From: a virus | Strand: one strand, 5' to 3' | IMG/VR virus record: IMGVR_UViG_3300030098_003066 | Span: 1 to 23,413 of that record | Length of the DNA stretch: 23,413 nucleotides | In this document: positions 1,001-9,442 of the stretch, in pieces | How the letters are laid out: each line of letters starts with the position of its first letter | Position numbering within the stretch: position 1 is the stretch's first letter | Program-made: the position numbers and the translations under genes | Notes under the pieces: model-generated | Databases searched by the model: none | What the model was told of the DNA's origin: nothing | The model's input: only the letters and a program-made list of their open reading frames with translations

Positions 1001-1221
1001 AATGTATTTAATCCTTTTATAGGAAAAGCTTTAAAGGGTAAACAATATCCCGTGGTTACCATATTATTCTTATATTCCAATGGTTTAGCTTCATAAATGT
1101 TTAAGTAATCTGCAAGTGCTGTCATGCAGCTATCTTCATCTGCATATAAAAAAGATTGTGTTTTTACTGATGGTAAATTAGGTTGTGATATCATTAAAAA
1201 TAGAAGCCAAACTTTTATCAT
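997..1221 (-). CDS. Small exported protein with signal peptide, hypothetical
   Basis: 74 residues. MIKVWLLFLMIS is a compact positively charged plus hydrophobic signal sequence. The mature part holds two cysteines (EDSCMTA and TGYCLPF) that could pair. There is no lipobox cysteine close after the hydrophobic stretch, so it does not look like a classic outer-membrane spanin lipoprotein. It overlaps both neighbours by 4 bases (ATGA), so translation is coupled from the 213-aa gene to the coiled-coil gene. No family recognised. Confidence 0.65.
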   Translation of the reverse strand: MIKVWLLFLMISQPNLPSVKTQSFLYADEDSCMTALADYLNIYEAKPLEYKNNMVTTGYCLPFKAFPIKGLNTL

Positions 1222-1859
1222 TTCTGTTCTTTTAAATCGTAAAAATAATTTGTGTCATCACCAGCTGTCCATTTTGATTTGTTTTCTACAGAGTAATATT
1301 CTGTTGACACTTTAAAATCAGGTTGTTTTGTTTCTGCAGGTGTAAGTGATTTGTCATAATATATAATTCTGTTGTTTGGTTGTGCTGCATAGTGACCATT
1401 ATCTAATTCTAATATGTTAAATGATTTGTGTTCTTCTGGCACTTCGCTGTAGCTGGTGTTTAATGTGTTGTGGTCTGAATGGCAATTGTCAATTGTAAAT
1501 AAATATTCTCCGTGATGCCATTTTTTAGATGGTGATAAATATTTACAACGCACACCCGCAAGTGATTGTTTTTCTATTACTGTAAAGTGATAACTAAATG
1601 CATCCCATAGCTCTAATTCTTCTAATGATAAATTTTCTTTGACATCAGGTGAACTAACAAAAGCACTAATAGGCAACTTATCATATAAAGCACCATATTC
1701 CGGCAAATACGTTTCAAAGTAGAGTGCTCTGCCTTGGATAGACTTACAAGTAATCCAAACACCTTCTACAAATTCTCCATGACCTTTTTGATGATCATAT
1801 AAGTATTCTTTTTTTATATATACTTTTATCGGTGGTAGATTTCCTACTAGATACGCCAT
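1218..1859 (-). CDS. Conserved marine-phage protein of unknown function
   Basis: 213 residues, soluble, no signal peptide or membrane segment. The N-terminal motif LPPIKVYIKKEYLYD, the block RALYFETYLPEYGALYDKLP and the C-terminal block SLTPAETKQPDFKVSTEYYS match a family I recall as widespread in marine phage genomes, always annotated as hypothetical. Aromatic-rich blocks and regular strand-like patterns suggest a beta-rich fold. Start ATG 1859 has a good ribosome-binding site on the leftward strand (GAGGGG, about 4 bases upstream). It is the first gene of the leftward cluster, so it is probably the most highly expressed of the five. I infer no function. Confidence 0.8.
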   Translation of the reverse strand: MAYLVGNLPPIKVYIKKEYLYDHQKGHGEFVEGVWITCKSIQGRALYFETYLPEYGALYDKLPISAFVSSPDVKENLSLEELELWDAFSYHFTVIEKQSLAGVRCKYLSPSKKWHHGEYLFTIDNCHSDHNTLNTSYSEVPEEHKSFNILELDNGHYAAQPNNRIIYYDKSLTPAETKQPDFKVSTEYYSVENKSKWTAGDDTNYFYDLKEQK

Positions 1860-2153: not shown

Positions 2154-2166
2154 TAGTTAAATGTCG

Positions 2167-2178
2167 ATGTTGCAACAT
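2167..2178. promoter_or_regulatory. Palindromic operator candidate ATGTTGCAACAT
   Basis: A perfect 12-bp inverted repeat placed about 14 bases after the -10 box, where a bound repressor would block initiation or early elongation. The 10-mer TGCAACATTG that covers its right half (2171-2180) occurs again at 7741-7750 beside another intergenic control region. The cognate regulator is unknown. The LexA-type protein at 4011-4247 is one candidate. Confidence 0.45.
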
Positions 2179-2356
2179 TGACTGAGTATGGCTGAACAAC
2201 TGTAACAAGGTAGTAAGGCACACTAAAGGAAAGATATGGTCGAATGACTGAAGGGTCCTAGGGTGGTACTGAAGTACTAGTTAACATTTAAAGGTGTTGA
2301 CTTGTCGGGAAAAGGTTGGGGGTAGTCAAAGAATCCCCCTACTCACTAAAAATATT

Positions 2357-4311: not shown

Positions 4312-4504
4312 GGTGCCACAGTGACACAATTGCTGATTAAACTATATAATTCAATGACTTATGTTGTGTCACCAATGTGTCACTACTCTAGACAACGCAA
4401 GGCACTTTTTTGTATTTTAGAAAATAAAATGAGTAAAAACTCAACTATATTGCGAGGTTTTGCATGGTAGATAAAAGAATTAGTGGTGACACAAGTGGTG
4501 CCAC
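4312..4504. repeat. Array of six GTGNCAC motifs in three pairs
   Basis: Exact copies at 4313-4319, 4321-4327, 4366-4372, 4377-4383, 4486-4492 and 4498-4504. They form three pairs with start-to-start distances of 8, 11 and 12. Allowing for orientation, the extended form is GGTGMCACAA, with the middle pair inverted. The first pair overlaps the -35 of the promoter at 4321-4350, the second lies just past its predicted start, and the third lies in the 5' end of the terminase small-subunit gene. This fits either operators of the neighbouring LexA-type protein or a TerS-binding (pac/cos) region. Confidence 0.7.
4321..4350 (+). promoter_or_regulatory. Promoter in front of terS, overlapped by GTGNCAC motifs
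   Basis: -35 GTGACA (4321-4326, five of six bases of TTGACA), 18-base spacer, perfect -10 TATAAT (4345-4350). The -35 is itself part of a GTGNCAC motif, and a second motif pair (4366-4383) starts about 10 bases after the predicted transcript start. This is the classic arrangement for repression by a bound dimer. Confidence 0.55.
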
Positions 4505-5057
4505 AAATATGGCAAAAAGATATCCAATTAGAAATGATGGATTGACAGATAAACAGCGTATCTTTGTGCAGATATATACAGAGAACGAAGGAAGATTGAC
4601 ACCTACAGAATGTGCAAGACAAGCTGGTTATGCAGAAGACAGAGCAAATACCACTGCATCAGAATTATTAAATGGTAAAAGATTTCCAAAAGTAGTAGAA
4701 GCTGTTCTTGCAAGAAGAGCAGAAATACAAAAAACACACGAAGTAAAATTAGATAAACATGTACAAGAATTGGCTAGGTTGCGTGAAAAATCATTGGCAG
4801 AAAAGTCTTATAGTGCTGCTGTTAATGCTGAGCGCTTGCGGGGTCAAGCCGCAGGATTGTACATTGACCGTAAAGAAATCAGGACGGGATCCATTGATTC
4901 TATGTCGCGTGATGACGTTTTAAAAGCATTAAAGGATTTAGGATTAGATGGACAAATTAAAAAAGAAGGAAACAACACAGTCGTATCGGTCGAGAAATCC
5001 AATAGCGAAGGACTTAAAGACATCACACCAGTATCGTCAGAGGATCAAAAAGAGTAA
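4464..5057 (+). CDS. terS: Terminase small subunit
   Basis: 197 residues. The small subunit recognises the phage DNA packaging site and hands the DNA to the large subunit. The helix-turn-helix core is LTDKQRIFVQIYTENEG (27-43), PTECARQAGYAEDRANTTAS (47-66), LLNGKRFPKVVEAVLARRAE (69-88), the usual pattern of the Terminase_2-type family. A charged helical, probably coiled-coil, oligomerisation region follows to about 130, then a polar C-terminal tail. Start ATG 4464 is chosen because GAGG lies 7-8 bases upstream. An ATG at 4509 (MAKRYPIRND) is the alternative, and it would remove the repeat-encoded SGDTSGAT segment, which comes from the third GTGNCAC pair. Large subunit is at 7979, unusually far away because of the inserted cassette region. 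Confidence 0.85.
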   Translation: MVDKRISGDTSGATNMAKRYPIRNDGLTDKQRIFVQIYTENEGRLTPTECARQAGYAEDRANTTASELLNGKRFPKVVEAVLARRAEIQKTHEVKLDKHVQELARLREKSLAEKSYSAAVNAERLRGQAAGLYIDRKEIRTGSIDSMSRDDVLKALKDLGLDGQIKKEGNNTVVSVEKSNSEGLKDITPVSSEDQKE

Positions 5058-5065
5058 AAAGAAGT

Positions 5066-5479
5066 ATGACCGTAAAGACGGAAACAAACTTTTGGAAGAA
5101 TTTAAAGAAATACTTAGACGCTGGTAATTACATATACTCACGATTAGAAAGTTACGTTACGCCAGGATTCCCTGATTGCCTAATTTATCACAAAGATATA
5201 GGATTCTTTACAGTAGAATTAAAAGTCGCTAATAGTAGTAATAAAGTGGTACTATCTCCGTTCCAAATTGCATGGAATATGCGTCATGCTACAGCTGGTG
5301 CACCTTCTTACATCCTAGTTAGCTTGCCTCTCGCAGAGCAAGTCAAACTGTTTCACGGATGCAAAACCAAGGAACTCGGCCAAAGTAACGTGTTCCAAGT
5401 GCCTGGGCTATACGAAGGACCCATCGCGGACCTCGATTTTACGAAAATCGTGTCAAACTCCCAAACTCCCCTATCATAA
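5066..5479 (+). CDS. VRR-NUC type nuclease (PD-(D/E)XK fold)
   Basis: 137 residues. PGFPDCLI (33-40) with D37, then FFTVELKV (47-54) giving E51-x-K53, then a conserved Gln in SPFQ (64-67) and a beta strand SYILVS, form the catalytic core of the VRR-NUC family of small phage nucleases related to Holliday-junction resolvases. Divalent-metal DNA cleavage is the family's activity; the exact substrate here is unknown, but cutting branched DNA before packaging is a common idea. It follows terS by 8 bases. The 3' end is odd: base composition becomes GC-richer from about 5330, there is a hairpin at 5434-5450, and the last residues (NSQTPLS) are encoded by two tandem AAACTCCC repeats, so the original C-terminus may have been replaced by repeat DNA. 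Confidence 0.8.
   Translation: MTVKTETNFWKNLKKYLDAGNYIYSRLESYVTPGFPDCLIYHKDIGFFTVELKVANSSNKVVLSPFQIAWNMRHATAGAPSYILVSLPLAEQVKLFHGCKTKELGQSNVFQVPGLYEGPIADLDFTKIVSNSQTPLS
5434..5450. repeat. Hairpin inside the nuclease gene 3' end
   Basis: CGATTTT-ACG-AAAATCG, a perfect 7-bp stem with a 3-base loop, placed just before the first AAACTCCC pair. It may mark the left edge of the repeat-rich region. Confidence 0.6.
5455..5470 (+). repeat. AAACTCCC octamer pair 1 (spacing 8)
   Basis: Two perfect copies in tandem (5455-5462, 5463-5470) within the 3' end of the nuclease reading frame. Confidence 0.9.
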
Positions 5480-5485
5480 ATTTCT

Positions 5486-5505
5486 TGTGGATAACCTGTG
5501 GATAA
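5486..5505 (-). promoter_or_regulatory. Two tandem DnaA-box 9-mers
   Basis: TGTGGATAA at 5486-5494 and 5497-5505, each the exact reverse complement of the consensus DnaA box TTATCCACA. They start 11 bases apart, one helical turn, so both face the same side of the DNA. The same two-box arrangement recurs at 6069-6088 and 7749-7768. Confidence 0.75.
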
Positions 5506-5508
5506 CTC

Positions 5509-5533
5509 GCGCAGCTGCGCACCGGGCGCCCGG
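5509..5533. repeat. Two adjacent perfect GC palindromes
   Basis: GCGCAGCTGCGC (5509-5520) is followed one base later by CCGGGCGCCCGG (5522-5533). Both are perfect 12-bp palindromes directly beside the DnaA boxes. Confidence 0.9.
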
Positions 5534-5538
5534 CGCCC

Positions 5539-5556
5539 AAACTCCCTGAAACTCCC
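5539..5556 (+). repeat. AAACTCCC octamer pair 2 (spacing 10)
   Basis: Perfect copies at 5539-5546 and 5549-5556. Confidence 0.9.
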
Positions 5557-5634
5557 TTCGTTTTTCCTTGTTTTCCGCCGATTCGTCAGTTGGCCAGGAT
5601 CCCAGCAGCCCAGGATGCAGCCAGGAGCTTCCTG

Positions 5635-5652
5635 AAACTCCCGCAAACTCCC
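5635..5652 (+). repeat. AAACTCCC octamer pair 3 (spacing 10)
   Basis: Perfect copies at 5635-5642 and 5645-5652. Confidence 0.9.
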
Positions 5653-5696
5653 CAGTTTCCCTAACTTTTTTGTGCAGCCCAACTTCACCTGCAGCT

Positions 5697-5712
5697 GCCG
5701 GGCGCGCCCGGC
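5697..5712. repeat. 16-bp perfect palindrome GCCGGGCGCGCCCGGC
   Basis: Every base pairs across the centre. The inner 14 bases (CCGGGCGCGCCCGG) recur at 6199-6212 and 6498-6511, each time upstream of a promoter for a tiny gene. Confidence 0.95.
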
Positions 5713-5759
5713 GTCATCACCTTCGTACCAGTCTGGTAAAAAATAAAATAAACTAAATG

Positions 5760-5788
5760 TTGCCATGTGGATAATTTTTTGATATAAT
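5760..5788 (+). promoter_or_regulatory. Promoter of cassette 1 with a DnaA box in its spacer
   Basis: -35 TTGCCA (5760-5765), 17-base spacer, perfect -10 TATAAT (5783-5788). An exact DnaA box (TGTGGATAA, 5766-5774) occupies the spacer right after the -35, so DnaA binding would be expected to interfere with polymerase. AT-rich DNA (5773-5810) follows. Confidence 0.7.
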
Positions 5789-5819
5789 AGGATTTAGAAT
5801 TAGAAACAAAGGAGCTATT

Positions 5820-6038
5820 ATGGTTTTACCAGAAGATACTAACAATCCAATAGTGGATGCGTTAAATAGATTAATAGAGGCTGTCGAAGATAACAACGAC
5901 ACTCTTAAAAGAATTGCCAATCATTATGATTCGGTAGTTCCTGTGATGAAGCGAAATGCAGAAGCACACGAAGAAGCTAGGTCAGATAACCGTAGTACAT
6001 TAGACCATATGTACGAGAAGTTGTTCTCTAGCAACTAA
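5820..6038 (+). CDS. 72-aa hypothetical protein (cassette 1)
   Basis: ATG 5820 with an excellent ribosome-binding site (AAAGGAG, about 6 bases upstream) and its own promoter at 5760-5788. The product is acidic and almost entirely helical (NPIVDALNRLIEAVEDNNDT, then KRIANHYDSVVPVMKRNAEA, then a charged end), likely a small coiled coil. No membrane segment and no recognised family. Its stop is followed six bases later by an AAACTCCC repeat. AT-rich codon use resembles the rest of the phage and contrasts sharply with the GC-rich DNA on both sides. Confidence 0.75.
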   Translation: MVLPEDTNNPIVDALNRLIEAVEDNNDTLKRIANHYDSVVPVMKRNAEAHEEARSDNRSTLDHMYEKLFSSN

Positions 6039-6043
6039 TTCTC

Positions 6044-6051
6044 AAACTCCC
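6044..6051 (+). repeat. Single AAACTCCC octamer
   Basis: One perfect copy six bases after the stop of the 72-aa gene. It runs into the left arm of the hairpin at 6049-6073. Confidence 0.85.
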
Positions 6052-6073
6052 CTGCGACATTTTGCCGCAGGGG
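6049..6073 (+). terminator. Strong hairpin after the 72-aa gene
   Basis: CCCCTGCG (6049-6056) and CGCAGGGG (6066-6073) form a perfect 8-bp GC-rich stem with a 9-base loop. There is no T run after it, so it is a terminator or mRNA-end stabiliser by position rather than a textbook intrinsic terminator. Its right arm runs into the first, degenerate DnaA box. Confidence 0.5.
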
Positions 6074-6088
6074 ATAACCTGTGGATAA
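6069..6088 (-). promoter_or_regulatory. DnaA-box pair (one degenerate, one exact)
   Basis: AGGGGATAA (6069-6077, degenerate) and TGTGGATAA (6080-6088, exact), start-to-start 11. The spacing and the joining CC match the pair at 5486-5505. Confidence 0.6.
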
Positions 6089-6129
6089 GTCGGCCGGGAG
6101 GCCGGGCGCCTGGCAGCTAAAACTGCCTC

Positions 6130-6145
6130 AAACTCCCAAACTCCC
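6130..6145 (+). repeat. AAACTCCC octamer pair (spacing 8)
   Basis: Perfect tandem copies at 6130-6137 and 6138-6145. Confidence 0.9.
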
Positions 6146-6194
6146 TATAACAATTTTTCCCAGTTTTCTGCGAAGTCGTATCCTGCATCTCCAC

Positions 6195-6223
6195 GCACCG
6201 GGCGCGCCCGGGTTAGTTGCTGA
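6195..6223 (+). repeat. 29-bp direct repeat, copy 1
   Basis: Identical over 29 bases to 6494-6522. It contains the palindrome CCGGGCGCGCCCGG and then GTTAGTTGCTGA. It lies 52 bases upstream of the -35 of cassette 2. Confidence 0.95.
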
Positions 6224-6275
6224 AGTCACGGATATTTTTTTCGCAGAAGCCCGGGCTTTTATTTGCAGAGACTGG

Positions 6276-6304
6276 TTGACAAACGCTGCAGCTGGATCTA
6301 TATA
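6276..6304 (+). promoter_or_regulatory. Promoter of cassette 2
   Basis: Perfect -35 TTGACA (6276-6281), 17-base spacer, -10 TATATA (6299-6304). It drives the 28-aa gene at 6350. Confidence 0.65.
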
Positions 6305-6349
6305 ACCAGGCAGCTGGAGATGCAGCTGCTAGAAAGAAGAAAGGATAGA

Positions 6350-6436
6350 ATGGATTTGTTATTAGCTTTATTAATACCCCTGAAGTGGGTTATTATTGCA
6401 TACTTCGTGTTTGTTTTCGTGTCCAAACTCCTGTAA
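6350..6436 (+). CDS. 28-aa single-pass membrane protein (cassette 2), paralogue of the 2596 gene
   Basis: ATG 6350 with AAAGGA about 6 bases upstream and its own promoter (6276-6304). The product is a hydrophobic helix (LLLALLIPLKWVIIAYFVFV) ending in SKLL. The LLIPLK core and following aromatic helix match the 31-aa product at 2596-2691, so this is probably a duplicated gene. The last codons (AAACTCCTG) and the stop are encoded by the first, degenerate unit of an AAACTCCC array, showing that repeat DNA forms the gene's 3' end, as in the nuclease gene. Function unknown. Confidence 0.6.
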   Translation: MDLLLALLIPLKWVIIAYFVFVFVSKLL

Positions 6437-6458
6437 CTCCCCAAACTCCCAAACTCCC
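6425..6458 (+). repeat. AAACTCCC array (two exact, two degenerate)
   Basis: AAACTCCT 6425-6432, TAACTCCC 6434-6441, then perfect copies at 6443-6450 and 6451-6458. The first unit encodes the end of the 28-aa gene. Confidence 0.85.
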
Positions 6459-6493
6459 CATCCTGGACCCAAGGTTCGTGACGTGCAGTCCGG

Positions 6494-6522
6494 GCACCGG
6501 GCGCGCCCGGGTTAGTTGCTGA
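6494..6522 (+). repeat. 29-bp direct repeat, copy 2
   Basis: Identical to 6195-6223, again containing CCGGGCGCGCCCGG. It lies 12 bases upstream of the -35 of cassette 3. Confidence 0.95.
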
Positions 6523-6534
6523 CGGAAGTTGGTC

Positions 6535-6563
6535 TTGACTGTATTTTGGATTCGTGTTATAAT
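6535..6563 (+). promoter_or_regulatory. Promoter of cassette 3
   Basis: -35 TTGACT (6535-6540), 17-base spacer, perfect -10 TATAAT (6558-6563) with TGT before it (extended -10). This is one of the best promoter matches in the window. Confidence 0.75.
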
Positions 6564-6589
6564 GGAAAGATAAATAGAAAGGATTAGTT

Positions 6590-6766
6590 ATGATTCATTG
6601 GAACAAATGGACTAAAGATTATACATATACTTATTTGTGGCATAAGGGTACTTGGGTACTTATCCACAAGAAAAAGAATAAACCAGTTGTGGCATGGGTT
6701 AAGTCATGGTATGACAATGGCAGAAATAGACTAAATGATATTTCTAGCCAATGGCTTAAAGTGTAG
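6590..6766 (+). CDS. 58-aa tryptophan-rich protein (cassette 3)
   Basis: ATG 6590 with AAAGGA about 6 bases upstream and a strong promoter at 6535-6563. Seven of 58 residues are Trp and many others are Tyr or Lys (HWNKWTKDYTYTYLWHKGTW, then VAWVKSWYDNG). No membrane segment; a small beta-rich, aromatic and basic fold seems likely. No family recognised. A DnaA box in the opposite orientation (6660-6668) lies inside the gene. Its size, its own promoter and its position between GC-rich islands make it a typical phage 'moron' candidate. Confidence 0.65.
   Translation: MIHWNKWTKDYTYTYLWHKGTWVLIHKKKNKPVVAWVKSWYDNGRNRLNDISSQWLKV
6660..6668 (+). promoter_or_regulatory. DnaA box inside the 58-aa gene
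   Basis: Exact TTATCCACA, in the opposite orientation to the other boxes of this region. Confidence 0.5.
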
Positions 6767-6937
6767 TTTGTAACTTCGTTCTATACTATAACCGTTAAAA
6801 AGAAAGCAGGAACAGTGGTCTTCACTACTGACCGACAGAGCAAAAGAATTGGGGTAAGATAAACGGTGTTAATCGGCTCTTACCTCAAACATAGAGGGGG
6901 TACCGAATCCGTTTCGAAGTATTATAATCGCCCCCTC

Positions 6938-6971
6938 AAACTACCAAACTCCCCCAAACTCCCAAACTCCA
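6938..6971 (+). repeat. AAACTCCC array (two exact, two degenerate)
   Basis: AAACTACC 6938-6945, perfect copies at 6946-6953 and 6956-6963, AAACTCCA 6964-6971. Confidence 0.85.
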
Positions 6972-6991
6972 ATCATATATTAAACAAGTGG

Positions 6992-7030
6992 CCGGGATCA
7001 CCTGCTGGCCGGGCATCCCGGTGTAGCAGG
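6992..7030 (+). repeat. Interleaved GC inverted repeats (pseudoknot potential)
   Basis: CCGGGAT (6992-6998) pairs with ATCCCGG (7015-7021), and CCTGCT (7001-7006) pairs with AGCAGG (7025-7030). Because the arms interleave, RNA or single-stranded DNA could fold as an H-type pseudoknot. Confidence 0.6.
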
Positions 7031-7046
7031 ACATCTAAACGGACAT

Positions 7047-7070
7047 AAAAAAAGGGCGAATAAATCGCCC
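7047..7070 (-). terminator. Intrinsic terminator of the leftward two-gene unit
   Basis: Read leftward, GGGCGA-TTTAT-TCGCCC (stem arms 7065-7070 and 7054-7059) is followed by seven T residues (complement of 7047-7053). This is a textbook intrinsic terminator 33 bases after the stop of the 95-aa gene. Confidence 0.85.
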
Positions 7071-7102
7071 TTGATTATGAAGTTAAGTTAGTAGAAAGAG
7101 GT

Positions 7103-7390
7103 TTAACCTAACCCCAATCTTTGCATAATATAACCTACATCAGATTGTAAATGTCTTAATAAGTCCATTGGGTCGACATCATTACCCTTGTTCTGTGCTA
7201 CCCACTCAACGACTGAGTTACACAACACACCACAAATTAACTTCCAATCAGCACTAGATTTTTCTGGAAGTTGTGCATTAATCAAGTTATCCAATTCGCC
7301 TGTTGCTTTTTTATCTTTTACTAGTTCTACTAGTGTTTCGATAACAGGTTGAATATTTACGTTATTGGCTGTTATAAGTTCATTAGGCAT
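7103..7390 (-). CDS. 95-aa hypothetical protein (leftward unit, gene 2)
   Basis: Started at ATG 7390 (MPNELITANN), which overlaps the end of the upstream gene by 8 bases. A longer form from 7420 is open but would need a larger overlap. Helical and acidic (PVIETLVELVKDKKATGELD, then SADWKLICGVLCNSVVEWVA, then a C-terminal helix). Two cysteines; no membrane segment. No family recognised. It is followed by a clean terminator, and both genes of this unit run against the surrounding transcription, which suggests independent acquisition. Confidence 0.7.
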   Translation of the reverse strand: MPNELITANNVNIQPVIETLVELVKDKKATGELDNLINAQLPEKSSADWKLICGVLCNSVVEWVAQNKGNDVDPMDLLRHLQSDVGYIMQRLGLG

Positions 7391-7676
7391 GAATTTCCCA
7401 CTCTCTAATAGAATTACCATTAACCTCGAATACAGTTTCAGGGTTAATATTTACCCAACGTCTATTGTCATCAGATAAACCATTACCAATACGATATGCT
7501 AATACATATTTGTCATGTTCGTTAACGCTACCTCGTGTAGCTATGTTAGTGTGTCGCCAAGCATTAGTACCTAGAATACCTCTCTTAAGTACAGACACTT
7601 CGCCTTTGTTGTTAATCCATTTGCAAGAGAAGATTTTGTTTTGACCTACTCTTGTTTTGAATTCTTGTTTAGTCAT
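7383..7676 (-). CDS. 97-aa protein, possible small SH3-like barrel (leftward unit, gene 1)
   Basis: ATG 7676 with AGAGGT about 5 bases upstream on the leftward strand. MTKQEFKTRVGQNKIFSCKW, then a turn (NNKGEV), then VLAYRIGNGLSDDNRRWVNI and ETVFEVNG give an N-terminal helix and a run of strands. The layout resembles small phage proteins annotated as SH3 beta-barrel fold (N-terminal MTKQEF..., strands ending in 'R..R...I..I'), but the match is from memory and weak. A regulatory or host-interacting role is possible. First gene of a two-gene moron-like unit. Confidence 0.65.
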   Translation of the reverse strand: MTKQEFKTRVGQNKIFSCKWINNKGEVSVLKRGILGTNAWRHTNIATRGSVNEHDKYVLAYRIGNGLSDDNRRWVNINPETVFEVNGNSIREWEIHA

Positions 7677-7716
7677 AGTTACCTCTTTCTATTTCTGTAT
7701 ACCTATTACCATATAC

Positions 7717-7745
7717 AGATAATATATGTTGTTGTATTTGTGCAA
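7717..7745 (-). promoter_or_regulatory. Candidate promoter of the leftward unit
   Basis: On the leftward strand, -35 TTGCAC (7745-7740), 17-base spacer, -10 TTATCT (7722-7717). A moderate match, but correctly placed about 40 bases before the ATG at 7676. The -35 lies next to the DnaA-box pair. Confidence 0.35.
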
Positions 7746-7748
7746 CAT

Positions 7749-7768
7749 TGTGGATATCCTGTGGATAA
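7749..7768 (-). promoter_or_regulatory. DnaA-box pair (one near-exact, one exact)
   Basis: TGTGGATAT (7749-7757, one mismatch) and TGTGGATAA (7760-7768), start-to-start 11, again joined by CC. Third occurrence of this two-box unit. Confidence 0.7.
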
Positions 7769-7796
7769 CTTGTGCCCGGGTGCGACAATTTGCCGC

Positions 7797-7811
7797 GCGA
7801 CATAATGTCGC
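7797..7811. repeat. Palindrome GCGACAT-A-ATGTCGC
   Basis: Perfect 7-bp arms around one central base. The local text TGCGACA-TTTGCCGC here also resembles the loop and right arm of the hairpin at 6053-6068, so islands B and E share ancestry. Confidence 0.8.
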
Positions 7812-7978
7812 AGGCGCCCAGGTCTTTAACTGCGCCCGAGCGCAAACGACGGGCCTACACCCCCCTTTTCTGCATAAGCATGCTTTATTTTTTTTGCTTG
7901 CCAGTCTGAGACTGTCAAAGACTAGAAAAATTGTTTTAAGTATGCTATAAGGTACCCTACCTAAAAAATTTTTAAAAA

Positions 7979-9442
7979 ATGGAAAACGTTTCTAATTTAG
8001 AATCCTTAGACACTAATACTCTCAAACTATTACTCAAAAACGCCATGGACAAAAAGCGTGACGAGGCACAAGGTGATTTTTTAAAATTTGTAAAAACAGT
8101 TTGGCCAGAGTTTGTAGAAGGTAAGCACCACAAGATATATGCAGAAAAACTAAATCGTATTGCAAACGGTGAGTTAAAACGTTTAATTGTAAACATGCCA
8201 CCAAGACATACAAAATCAGAGTTTGCATCTAATTTGTTTCCTGCGTTTTACATGGGCCGTCATCCAAAGGCAAAGCTTATACAAACCACGCACACAGGTG
8301 AATTAGCAATACGCTTTGGACGTAAAGCTAAAAACATGATAGAATCTAGTGACTATGAAAAAGTATTTCCAGAAGTTACACTTGCAGCTGACTCCAAAGC
8401 TGCTGGACGTTGGGAGTCAAATCATGGGGGCGAGTATTTTGCTGCTGGTGTTGGTGGGGCTATTACTGGTCGTGGTGCCGATTTACTTATTATTGACGAT
8501 CCTCATTCTGAGCAGGATGCGCTCTCCCCAACCGTTTTAGAATCACATTACGAGTGGTACACATCCGGTCCACGTCAGCGTTTACAACCTGGCGGCTCGA
8601 TCGTTATAGTTATGACTCGTTGGTCAATAAAAGATCTTACTGGTAAGTTGCTCGAGGCCCAAGGTAAAGACTCAGCTGCGGATCAATGGGAAGTAGTAGA
8701 GTTTCCTGCAATTATAAACGATAAACCTATGTGGGGTAATTTTTGGTCCATGGAAGGTTTATTAGGTGTCAAAGCATCTATACCTACAGCCAAGTGGAAT
8801 GCACAATGGATGCAAAATCCCGTGGCCGAGGAGGGTGCACTTATAAAACGTGAGTGGTGGCAAGCGTGGGATAATGAACAGATACCTGAGTTAAATTATA
8901 TAATACAATCGTACGATACAGCATTTAGCAAAAAAGAAACGGCAGATTACTCTGCTATTACAACGTGGGGTATATTTACGCCCGAAGAAGGTGGAGCACC
9001 AAACATAATATTATTAGACGCGAAAAAGGGTAGATGGAACTTTCCTGAACTAAAAGAAAAAGCACAAGAAGAGTATAAGTATTGGGAGCCAGAGGTTGTA
9101 TTGATCGAGGCCAAAGCGTCCGGGTTACCACTTACACACGAGTTACAAAAGGCTGGCATACCAGTTATTAACTTTACACCGTCAAAGGGAAATGATAAAC
9201 ATTCAAGAGTGAACAGCGTGGCACCGCTGTTTGAATCTGGTGCAGTATGGGCACCAAGCGATAGACGTTGGGCAGAGGAAGTCATAGAGGAGTGTGCTGC
9301 ATTCCCCTTTGGCGATCATGATGATTACGTGGATAGCATGACGCAAGCATTGATGCGATACCGTCAAGGTTATTACGTTGAACTAAAGGACGACTTTGCT
9401 GATGAACCAACAAATGCAAACTACAGAAGAAAATACTACTAA
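7979..9442 (+). CDS. terL: Terminase large subunit (packaging ATPase and nuclease)
   Basis: 487 residues, normal length for the family. The enzyme pumps DNA into the prohead using ATP and cuts the concatemer. Visible motifs: Walker A PPRHTKS (74-80), Walker B LLIIDDP (169-175), coupling motif VMTRWS (211-216), then the RNase H-like nuclease with SYDTAF (D313), LIEAKASG (E377) and GDHDDYVDSM (445-454, last catalytic Asp). All key residues are present, so it should be active. Start ATG 7979 is preceded only by A/T runs with no Shine-Dalgarno; the next ATG (8045) has none either and would cut a conserved-looking N-terminus. It opens the morphogenesis operon and overlaps the next gene by 41 bases. 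Confidence 0.95.
   Translation: MENVSNLESLDTNTLKLLLKNAMDKKRDEAQGDFLKFVKTVWPEFVEGKHHKIYAEKLNRIANGELKRLIVNMPPRHTKSEFASNLFPAFYMGRHPKAKLIQTTHTGELAIRFGRKAKNMIESSDYEKVFPEVTLAADSKAAGRWESNHGGEYFAAGVGGAITGRGADLLIIDDPHSEQDALSPTVLESHYEWYTSGPRQRLQPGGSIVIVMTRWSIKDLTGKLLEAQGKDSAADQWEVVEFPAIINDKPMWGNFWSMEGLLGVKASIPTAKWNAQWMQNPVAEEGALIKREWWQAWDNEQIPELNYIIQSYDTAFSKKETADYSAITTWGIFTPEEGGAPNIILLDAKKGRWNFPELKEKAQEEYKYWEPEVVLIEAKASGLPLTHELQKAGIPVINFTPSKGNDKHSRVNSVAPLFESGAVWAPSDRRWAEEVIEECAAFPFGDHDDYVDSMTQALMRYRQGYYVELKDDFADEPTNANYRRKYY

Follow-up and report, generated by a model that had tools for sequence, protein, structure and literature searches.

We analysed a window of 23,413 bases (IMG/VR record IMGVR_UViG_3300030098_003066), a genome fragment of a marine podovirus, in which small genes separated by repeat modules form an array between the nuclease gene (nuc, after the small terminase gene terS) and terL, the large terminase gene. 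The array is clade-specific, conserved and far above chance expectation, and it is present in more than 100 uncultured marine phages. Its strongest signal and most constrained element is a double DnaA box, to which the initial annotation of this DNA had given no more than a passing mention. What was observed directly comprises the anatomy and its conservation, the exact spacing of the double boxes, a box inside the o72 promoter or a short way upstream of it, and the exchange and homogenisation of modules. On this pattern we propose, tentatively and at close to an even chance, that the array may bind host DnaA and punctuate the chain of small phage genes.

GC-rich repeat modules alternating with tiny genes had been described initially, and counts in the window bore this out (Table 1). 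The repeat AAACTCCC (AAACTCC repeat) occurs 13 times, always on the + strand and within 5455-6963, against an expectation of 0.57 for the whole window and of 0.08 for 5453-7978 by shuffling (maximum 2 in 1000). The palindrome CCGGGCGCGCCCGG is present at 5698, 6198 and 6497 (0 in 1000 shuffles), and six exact DnaA boxes fall within 5453-7978 (shuffle mean 0.03). The islands also proved richer in GC than the open reading frames (ORFs), as claimed, at 54-64% (6767-7050 only 45%) compared with 34-38%. In each unit, an AAACTCC doublet is followed by a double DnaA box, its two boxes 2 bp apart, and then by GC-rich palindromic DNA. Spacing in a doublet is 8 bp, sometimes 9 or 10, and about 70-110 bp from doublet to doublet; the repeats nearly always point in the same direction as terS and terL. 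The claim that each ORF has its own promoter with a spacer of exactly 17 bases held for o72 and o58, whose promoters are near-consensus, and less clearly for o28, whose weak candidate consists of TTGACA at 6276-6281 followed by TATATA at a spacing of 17 or TATAAC at 19. Searches of Pfam, PHROGs and NCBIfam yielded no function for o72, o58, m96 or m97.

To define the spread of the array, loci were collected by scanning for the AAACTCCC doublet alone (51 viral contigs), by scanning for the doublet plus one DnaA box, and by TerL-based retrieval. The doublet-plus-box module, which the initial annotation had proposed to seek in metagenomes and host genomes, was found in 118 viral contigs of IMG/VR and in none of the genomes of 84,980 bacterial and archaeal species. 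A host or prophage origin was rejected, the pattern being absent from those genomes and the TerL matches there being relatives of 47-67% identity. The array was present in all informative loci with a TerL more than about 80% identical to that of the window, including those retrieved by TerL only, and absent from relatives at or below 71%. Its position between nuclease gene and terL is constant, and in 61 loci with both anchors it occupies 1.9-3.4 kb from nuclease to TerL. Over all anchored loci, 1004 copies of AAACTCCC lie inside this interval and 33 outside, and 545 DnaA boxes inside and 17 outside, counts that are inflated by locus choice, although loci retrieved through TerL give the same picture. 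One 1.3-kb stretch of a 61.7-kb record holds all 13 of its AAACTCCC copies.

Using the DnaA consensus TTATCCACA, we found 300 exact boxes in 49 dereplicated arrays. The exact box outnumbered its one-mismatch neighbours about 70:1 (304 against a mean of 4.2 per neighbour). Partner boxes with 2 mismatches or fewer lay at an offset of exactly 11 bp in 199 cases, at 12 bp in 15 and at 9 bp in 11, and almost never elsewhere; the 11-bp spacing was no part of the pattern used to select loci. The boxes thus combine a consensus well above chance with pairing across a 2- or 3-bp gap, and E. coli DnaA in vivo prefers box pairs 2 or 3 bp apart, as determined by chromatin immunoprecipitation sequencing (PMC11317965). 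Outside the clade, eleven related records (TerL 57-67%, about 560 kb) contained no TTATCCACA, compared with 9 occurrences of the reversed control pattern; the missing box in these records (W01-W04, G002 and G007-G012) may reflect avoidance.

Double boxes are mostly oriented the same way (132/142), with strongly GC-rich DNA on the 3′ side and less GC-rich DNA on the 5′ side. This asymmetry, the tandem consensus boxes and the single dense cluster per genome would also suit a replication origin, at which DnaA melts the DNA and loads host DnaB, the AAACTCC repeats are iterons for a phage protein and the genes are incidental. The phage gene set, with polA, an AEP primase and SF1/SNF2 helicases, and without a DnaB helicase in our search, fits as well. 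An origin is the main rival reading, which we nevertheless judge unlikely, if deserving of serious weight: GC and TA skew at four-fold sites show no step at the array (39-42 kb in the one near-complete genome, of 61.7 kb), the stretch of ~15 bp before the boxes offers at best a weak AT-rich element (72% AT, compared with about 64% for the genome), boxes are located in promoters and inside o58, and relatives sharing the packaging genes have no boxes.

The promoters of o72 follow two unrelated designs. In type I the box forms the very first bases of the -35/-10 spacer, and in type II AAAGTTATCCACA lies upstream of -35; we counted 14 type I promoters, 16 type II and 3 without a box. The type switches 7 times on the TerL+nuc tree, with a box kept in 30/33 loci. 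In L103, L127, L156, L167, L016, L184, L191 and L181 an insert of some 50-80 nt in the o72 5′ leader separates the -10 element from the ribosome-binding site; several of these inserts have inverted arms, and none has a convincing Rfam match.

The initial annotation had further viewed the chain as a modular acquisition site, integron-like, with GC palindromes as insertion points. Relatives compared across terS-terL lent the modular part partial support: ORF families occur in 17 to 57 of the 61 loci (Table 1), and their presence changes repeatedly on the TerL+nuc tree of 42 loci (o58 5, m97 7, F6 6 and o72 2 changes) while modules remain at the junctions. Exact repeats of at least 18 bp linking modules within a genome numbered 158 in 49 arrays and 0 in 41 control stretches, and modules 2 and 3 of the window are 94% identical over 34 bp, where both close relatives differ. 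These long repeats and the module 2/3 match support recombination and homogenisation among modules within genomes, and window module 2 has taken over module 3 sequence. Site-specific insertion was not borne out. Gene order is mostly kept, and the tyrosine recombinase domain PF00589 was absent from the window and four relatives, including the 61.7- and 69.8-kb records (control genomes were positive); an integron cassette array was rejected for want of a recombinase. The case for GC palindromes as insertion points also proved weak, the double box being the most constrained element. Two traits of phage morons, promoters and gene turnover, are present, and a promoter recurs at junctions of small variable genes, as in the promoter-stem-loop (PeSL) cassettes of T4-type phages; hairpin-plus-T terminators, PeSL-type stem-loops included, were not found on the + strand of the array. 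The tiny membrane peptides (window 6350-6436 and 30 other loci) are 24-30 aa long and share the motif (I/L)P(L/I)K at their centre, and L053 and L043 encode similar peptides in the matching place.

Gene turnover, homogenisation within genomes and the module 2/3 conversion would all be expected if the modules were mainly recombination linkers of a small-gene hotspot, comparable to T4 PeSLs or lambdoid boundary sequences, with the boxes serving as homology only. Linkers, however, have no need for consensus DnaA boxes at 11-bp spacing or in promoter spacers, and the boxes persist through changes of o72 promoter type. Moreover, indel breakpoints could not be cleanly placed because paralogous modules align to one another, and automatic breakpoints were excluded as proof. 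We consider this explanation improbable.

The repeat unit had been noted at the 3′ ends of the nuclease, 72-aa and 28-aa genes, and relatives confirmed it: AAACTCC repeats accompany the stop codon of nuc in 49/49 cases, of o72 in 32/37 and of the tiny membrane peptide in 29/30, compared with 24% of random positions. None was found at the ends of m96 and m97 (0/64 on the minus strand, 0/12 on the plus strand). The repeats share with stoperators a single orientation, an intergenic position and a lineage-specific consensus. Rho-utilisation sites are a weak candidate at best: the doublets are rich in C and contain no G, yet the next 70 nt show no C bias (C 0.27, G 0.28), and doublets are missing from m96/m97 genes on the + strand. 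In L109, L118, L123 and L134, GGGAGTTT stands directly 5′ of AAACTCCC, forming a short perfect hairpin from the otherwise one-way repeat.

Lineages with a TerL of ~65-71% identity carry different short oriented repeats in the same interval, namely CTCCATT doublets at the nuclease end and directly 3′ of a tiny membrane peptide, AAATCCC repeats in L022 and inverted CTGATCC units in L075/L077. The layout is therefore probably older than its AAACTCC/DnaA version. The putative reader of the repeats seems to change from lineage to lineage, as with stoperators (PMC6550527). Lineage-specific repeats of fixed orientation adjoining terS could alternatively mark a packaging site, the doublets being bound by the small terminase and the repeats of distant lineages changing as terS diverges. 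This we regard as highly improbable, given that the sites, which are linked to stop codons, are scattered among the genes over about 1.5 kb, that the DnaA boxes would be left unexplained, and that the co-variation of repeats and terS is not diagnostic because TerS, nuc and TerL diverge together.

In the DnaA-responsive punctuation that we favour, as the reading that accounts for the most, a unit would have an AAACTCC doublet where the preceding gene ends, followed by a double DnaA box, a GC-rich palindrome, further doublets, a promoter and a small ORF, the o72 promoter carrying a DnaA box of its own. Host DnaA would bind the boxes, repress type I promoters through the box in the -35/-10 spacer and, at boxes directly 3′ of stop codons, act as a roadblock for RNA polymerase; DnaA is able to halt elongating RNA polymerase in this way (PMC11317965). 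Expression of each small gene would track the level or nucleotide state of host DnaA. The AAACTCC doublets may form the orientation-specific site of a putative factor, and recombination between modules, made possible by their resemblance, could add, remove or swap genes.

Several points weigh against this proposal. The double boxes 3′ of stop codons could equally nucleate replication. AAACTCC is not a universal gene-end signal, being absent after the + strand m96/m97 genes. Nor is DnaA essential to the layout, since more distant lineages lack DnaA boxes and have other repeats there, such as CTCCATT. Finally, the host is a probable one, SAR11 being likely from kinship: the window TerL is 57-66% identical to those of Pelagibacter phages HTVC027P and HTVC023P and of phage 023Pt_psg01. 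Each array has 4-12 boxes, and their number would rise with the copy number of the phage, which also raises the thought of a decoy that titrates host DnaA and blocks initiation on the host chromosome. Boxes placed at promoters and gene ends make no compact sink, however, and we think a decoy very improbable.

Structured non-coding RNA was rejected as an identity for the modules: spacer folding was no stronger than in dinucleotide-shuffled sequences (mean z -0.35), and no Rfam match was found in the region. At 6894-6937 there is a 44-nt hairpin in which TACCGAATCCGTTT is invariant and two stems covary (both sides changed in 28 cells compared with 9 in shuffles, 0/500); it has no Rfam match. It recurs at L053:2256-2299 and in L114, L133, L271, L272, L275, L285, L305, L317 and L324, in a few array loci and also upstream of genes in other phage contigs, and is probably an undescribed mobile regulatory RNA.

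The separation of terS from terL, considered unusual in the initial annotation, is not so: HTVC027P, HTVC023P, 023Pt_psg01 and DSL-LC04 also have several kb filled with small genes there, and the gap is therefore a trait of the whole phage group, not special to the array. No record of the phage collection matched the window at the DNA level. Outside the array, 2165-2349 (+) matches the manA RNA family over its full length (36.9 bits, E 2.4e-6, below the Rfam gathering score) and is probably a divergent manA RNA, and the protein encoded at 1218-1859 (-) matches phrog_3704, annotated as ferredoxin (E 1.3e-100).

Table 1. Anchor genes and array features in the window. Fractions give the loci with the ORF family among the 61 with both anchors.
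Feature	Coordinates	Strand	Basis
Terminase small subunit, left anchor	4464..5057	+	PF03592 (E 3.9e-9), phrog_51
nuc, nuclease/helicase-like, phrog_2165; 3′ end encodes first AAACTCCC doublet	5066..5479	+	PHROGs match
AAACTCCC doublet 1, immediately 5′ of nuc stop	5455..5470	+	Sequence scan
Double DnaA box TGTGGATAA-CC-TGTGGATAA, 2-bp gap	5486..5505	+	Box scan
GC palindrome CCGGGCGCCCGG, 3′ of double box	5522..5533	.	Palindrome analysis
AAACTCCC doublet 2, spacing 10 bp	5539..5556	+	Sequence scan
AAACTCCC doublet 3, spacing 10 bp	5635..5652	+	Sequence scan
GC palindrome GCCGGGCGCGCCCGGC	5697..5712	.	Palindrome analysis
o72 promoter TTGCCA-17-TATAAT, type I; DnaA box 5766-5774 begins spacer	5760..5788	+	Near-consensus
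o72, acidic protein, 72 aa; 41/61	5820..6038	+	ORF families
AAACTCCC, immediately 3′ of o72 stop	6044..6051	+	Sequence scan
Double DnaA box AGGGGATAA-CC-TGTGGATAA, first copy degenerate	6069..6088	+	Box scan
AAACTCCC doublet	6130..6145	+	Sequence scan
GC palindrome CCGGGCGCGCCCGG	6198..6211	.	Palindrome analysis
o28 weak promoter-like site TTGACA-17-TATATA	6276..6304	+	Sequence
o28, tiny membrane peptide, 28 aa, 'LIPLK' family; 31/61	6350..6436	+	ORF families
AAACTCCC doublet, immediately 3′ of o28 stop	6443..6458	+	Sequence scan
GC palindrome CCGGGCGCGCCCGG	6497..6510	.	Palindrome analysis
o58 promoter TTGACT-17-TATAAT	6535..6563	+	Near-consensus
o58, basic aromatic protein, 58 aa, reverse DnaA box inside at 6660-6668; 17/61	6590..6766	+	ORF families
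Hairpin RNA motif, 44 nt, covarying stems, sporadic	6894..6937	+	Covariation
Last AAACTCC cluster	6946..6970	+	Sequence scan
m96, commonest array gene; 57/61	7103..7393	-	ORF families
m97, 80-97 aa; 38/61	7383..7676	-	ORF families
Double DnaA box TGTGGATAT-CC-TGTGGATAA, upstream of m97 and TerL	7749..7768	+	Box scan
Terminase large subunit, right anchor	7979..9442	+	PF17289, phrog_38

Taken as a whole, the chances seem to us evenly balanced that this marine phage clade has put a block of small genes, and possibly a replication start, under DnaA by means of interchangeable modules, and so reads the replication or growth state of its host. If DnaA binds here, widespread marine phages would take a cue from the host replication initiator. 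Regulation is strongly reduced in SAR11-type hosts, which would leave DnaA as one of few cell-cycle signals available to a phage. In the arrays, nature has also provided an alignment of over 100 phage modules for studying the grammar of DnaA sites (double boxes, promoter occlusion and roadblocks), and the long-standing question of how a lytic phage senses the state of its host can be put to the test on a defined promoter.

Tandem DnaA boxes with short direct repeats are known from oriC and from the iteron-DnaA origins of plasmids and phage P1. The array has both, and differs in its interleaved genes, its 4-12 boxes over 2-3 kb and the lack of a skew step; no initiator gene was found. In T4-type phages, PeSL cassettes (Arbiol 2010, Comeau 2014, as cited in PMC4503421) are intergenic and thought to mediate gene shuffling. 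Both systems consist of regulatory cassettes that recur between small variable genes and carry promoters, whereas the array has no T4 kinship and is made up of double DnaA boxes and AAACTCC doublets, and no hairpin-T terminators were found on its + strand. Alphaproteobacterial phages carry clusters of CtrA sites, and an asymmetry of DnaA sites was sought in phages and none found (PMC9437464). There, too, sites of a host cell-cycle regulator cluster at phage genes, but the regulator is CtrA, whereas the present sites are candidate DnaA sites in an uncultured marine clade. The stoperators of Cluster A mycobacteriophages are 13-bp sites bound by the phage repressor (PMC6550527). Like the AAACTCC repeats, they are short and asymmetric, lie mainly in one orientation relative to transcription and differ in consensus between lineages; unlike them, they are distributed genome-wide, whereas the 7-8-bp doublets described here are confined to one array.

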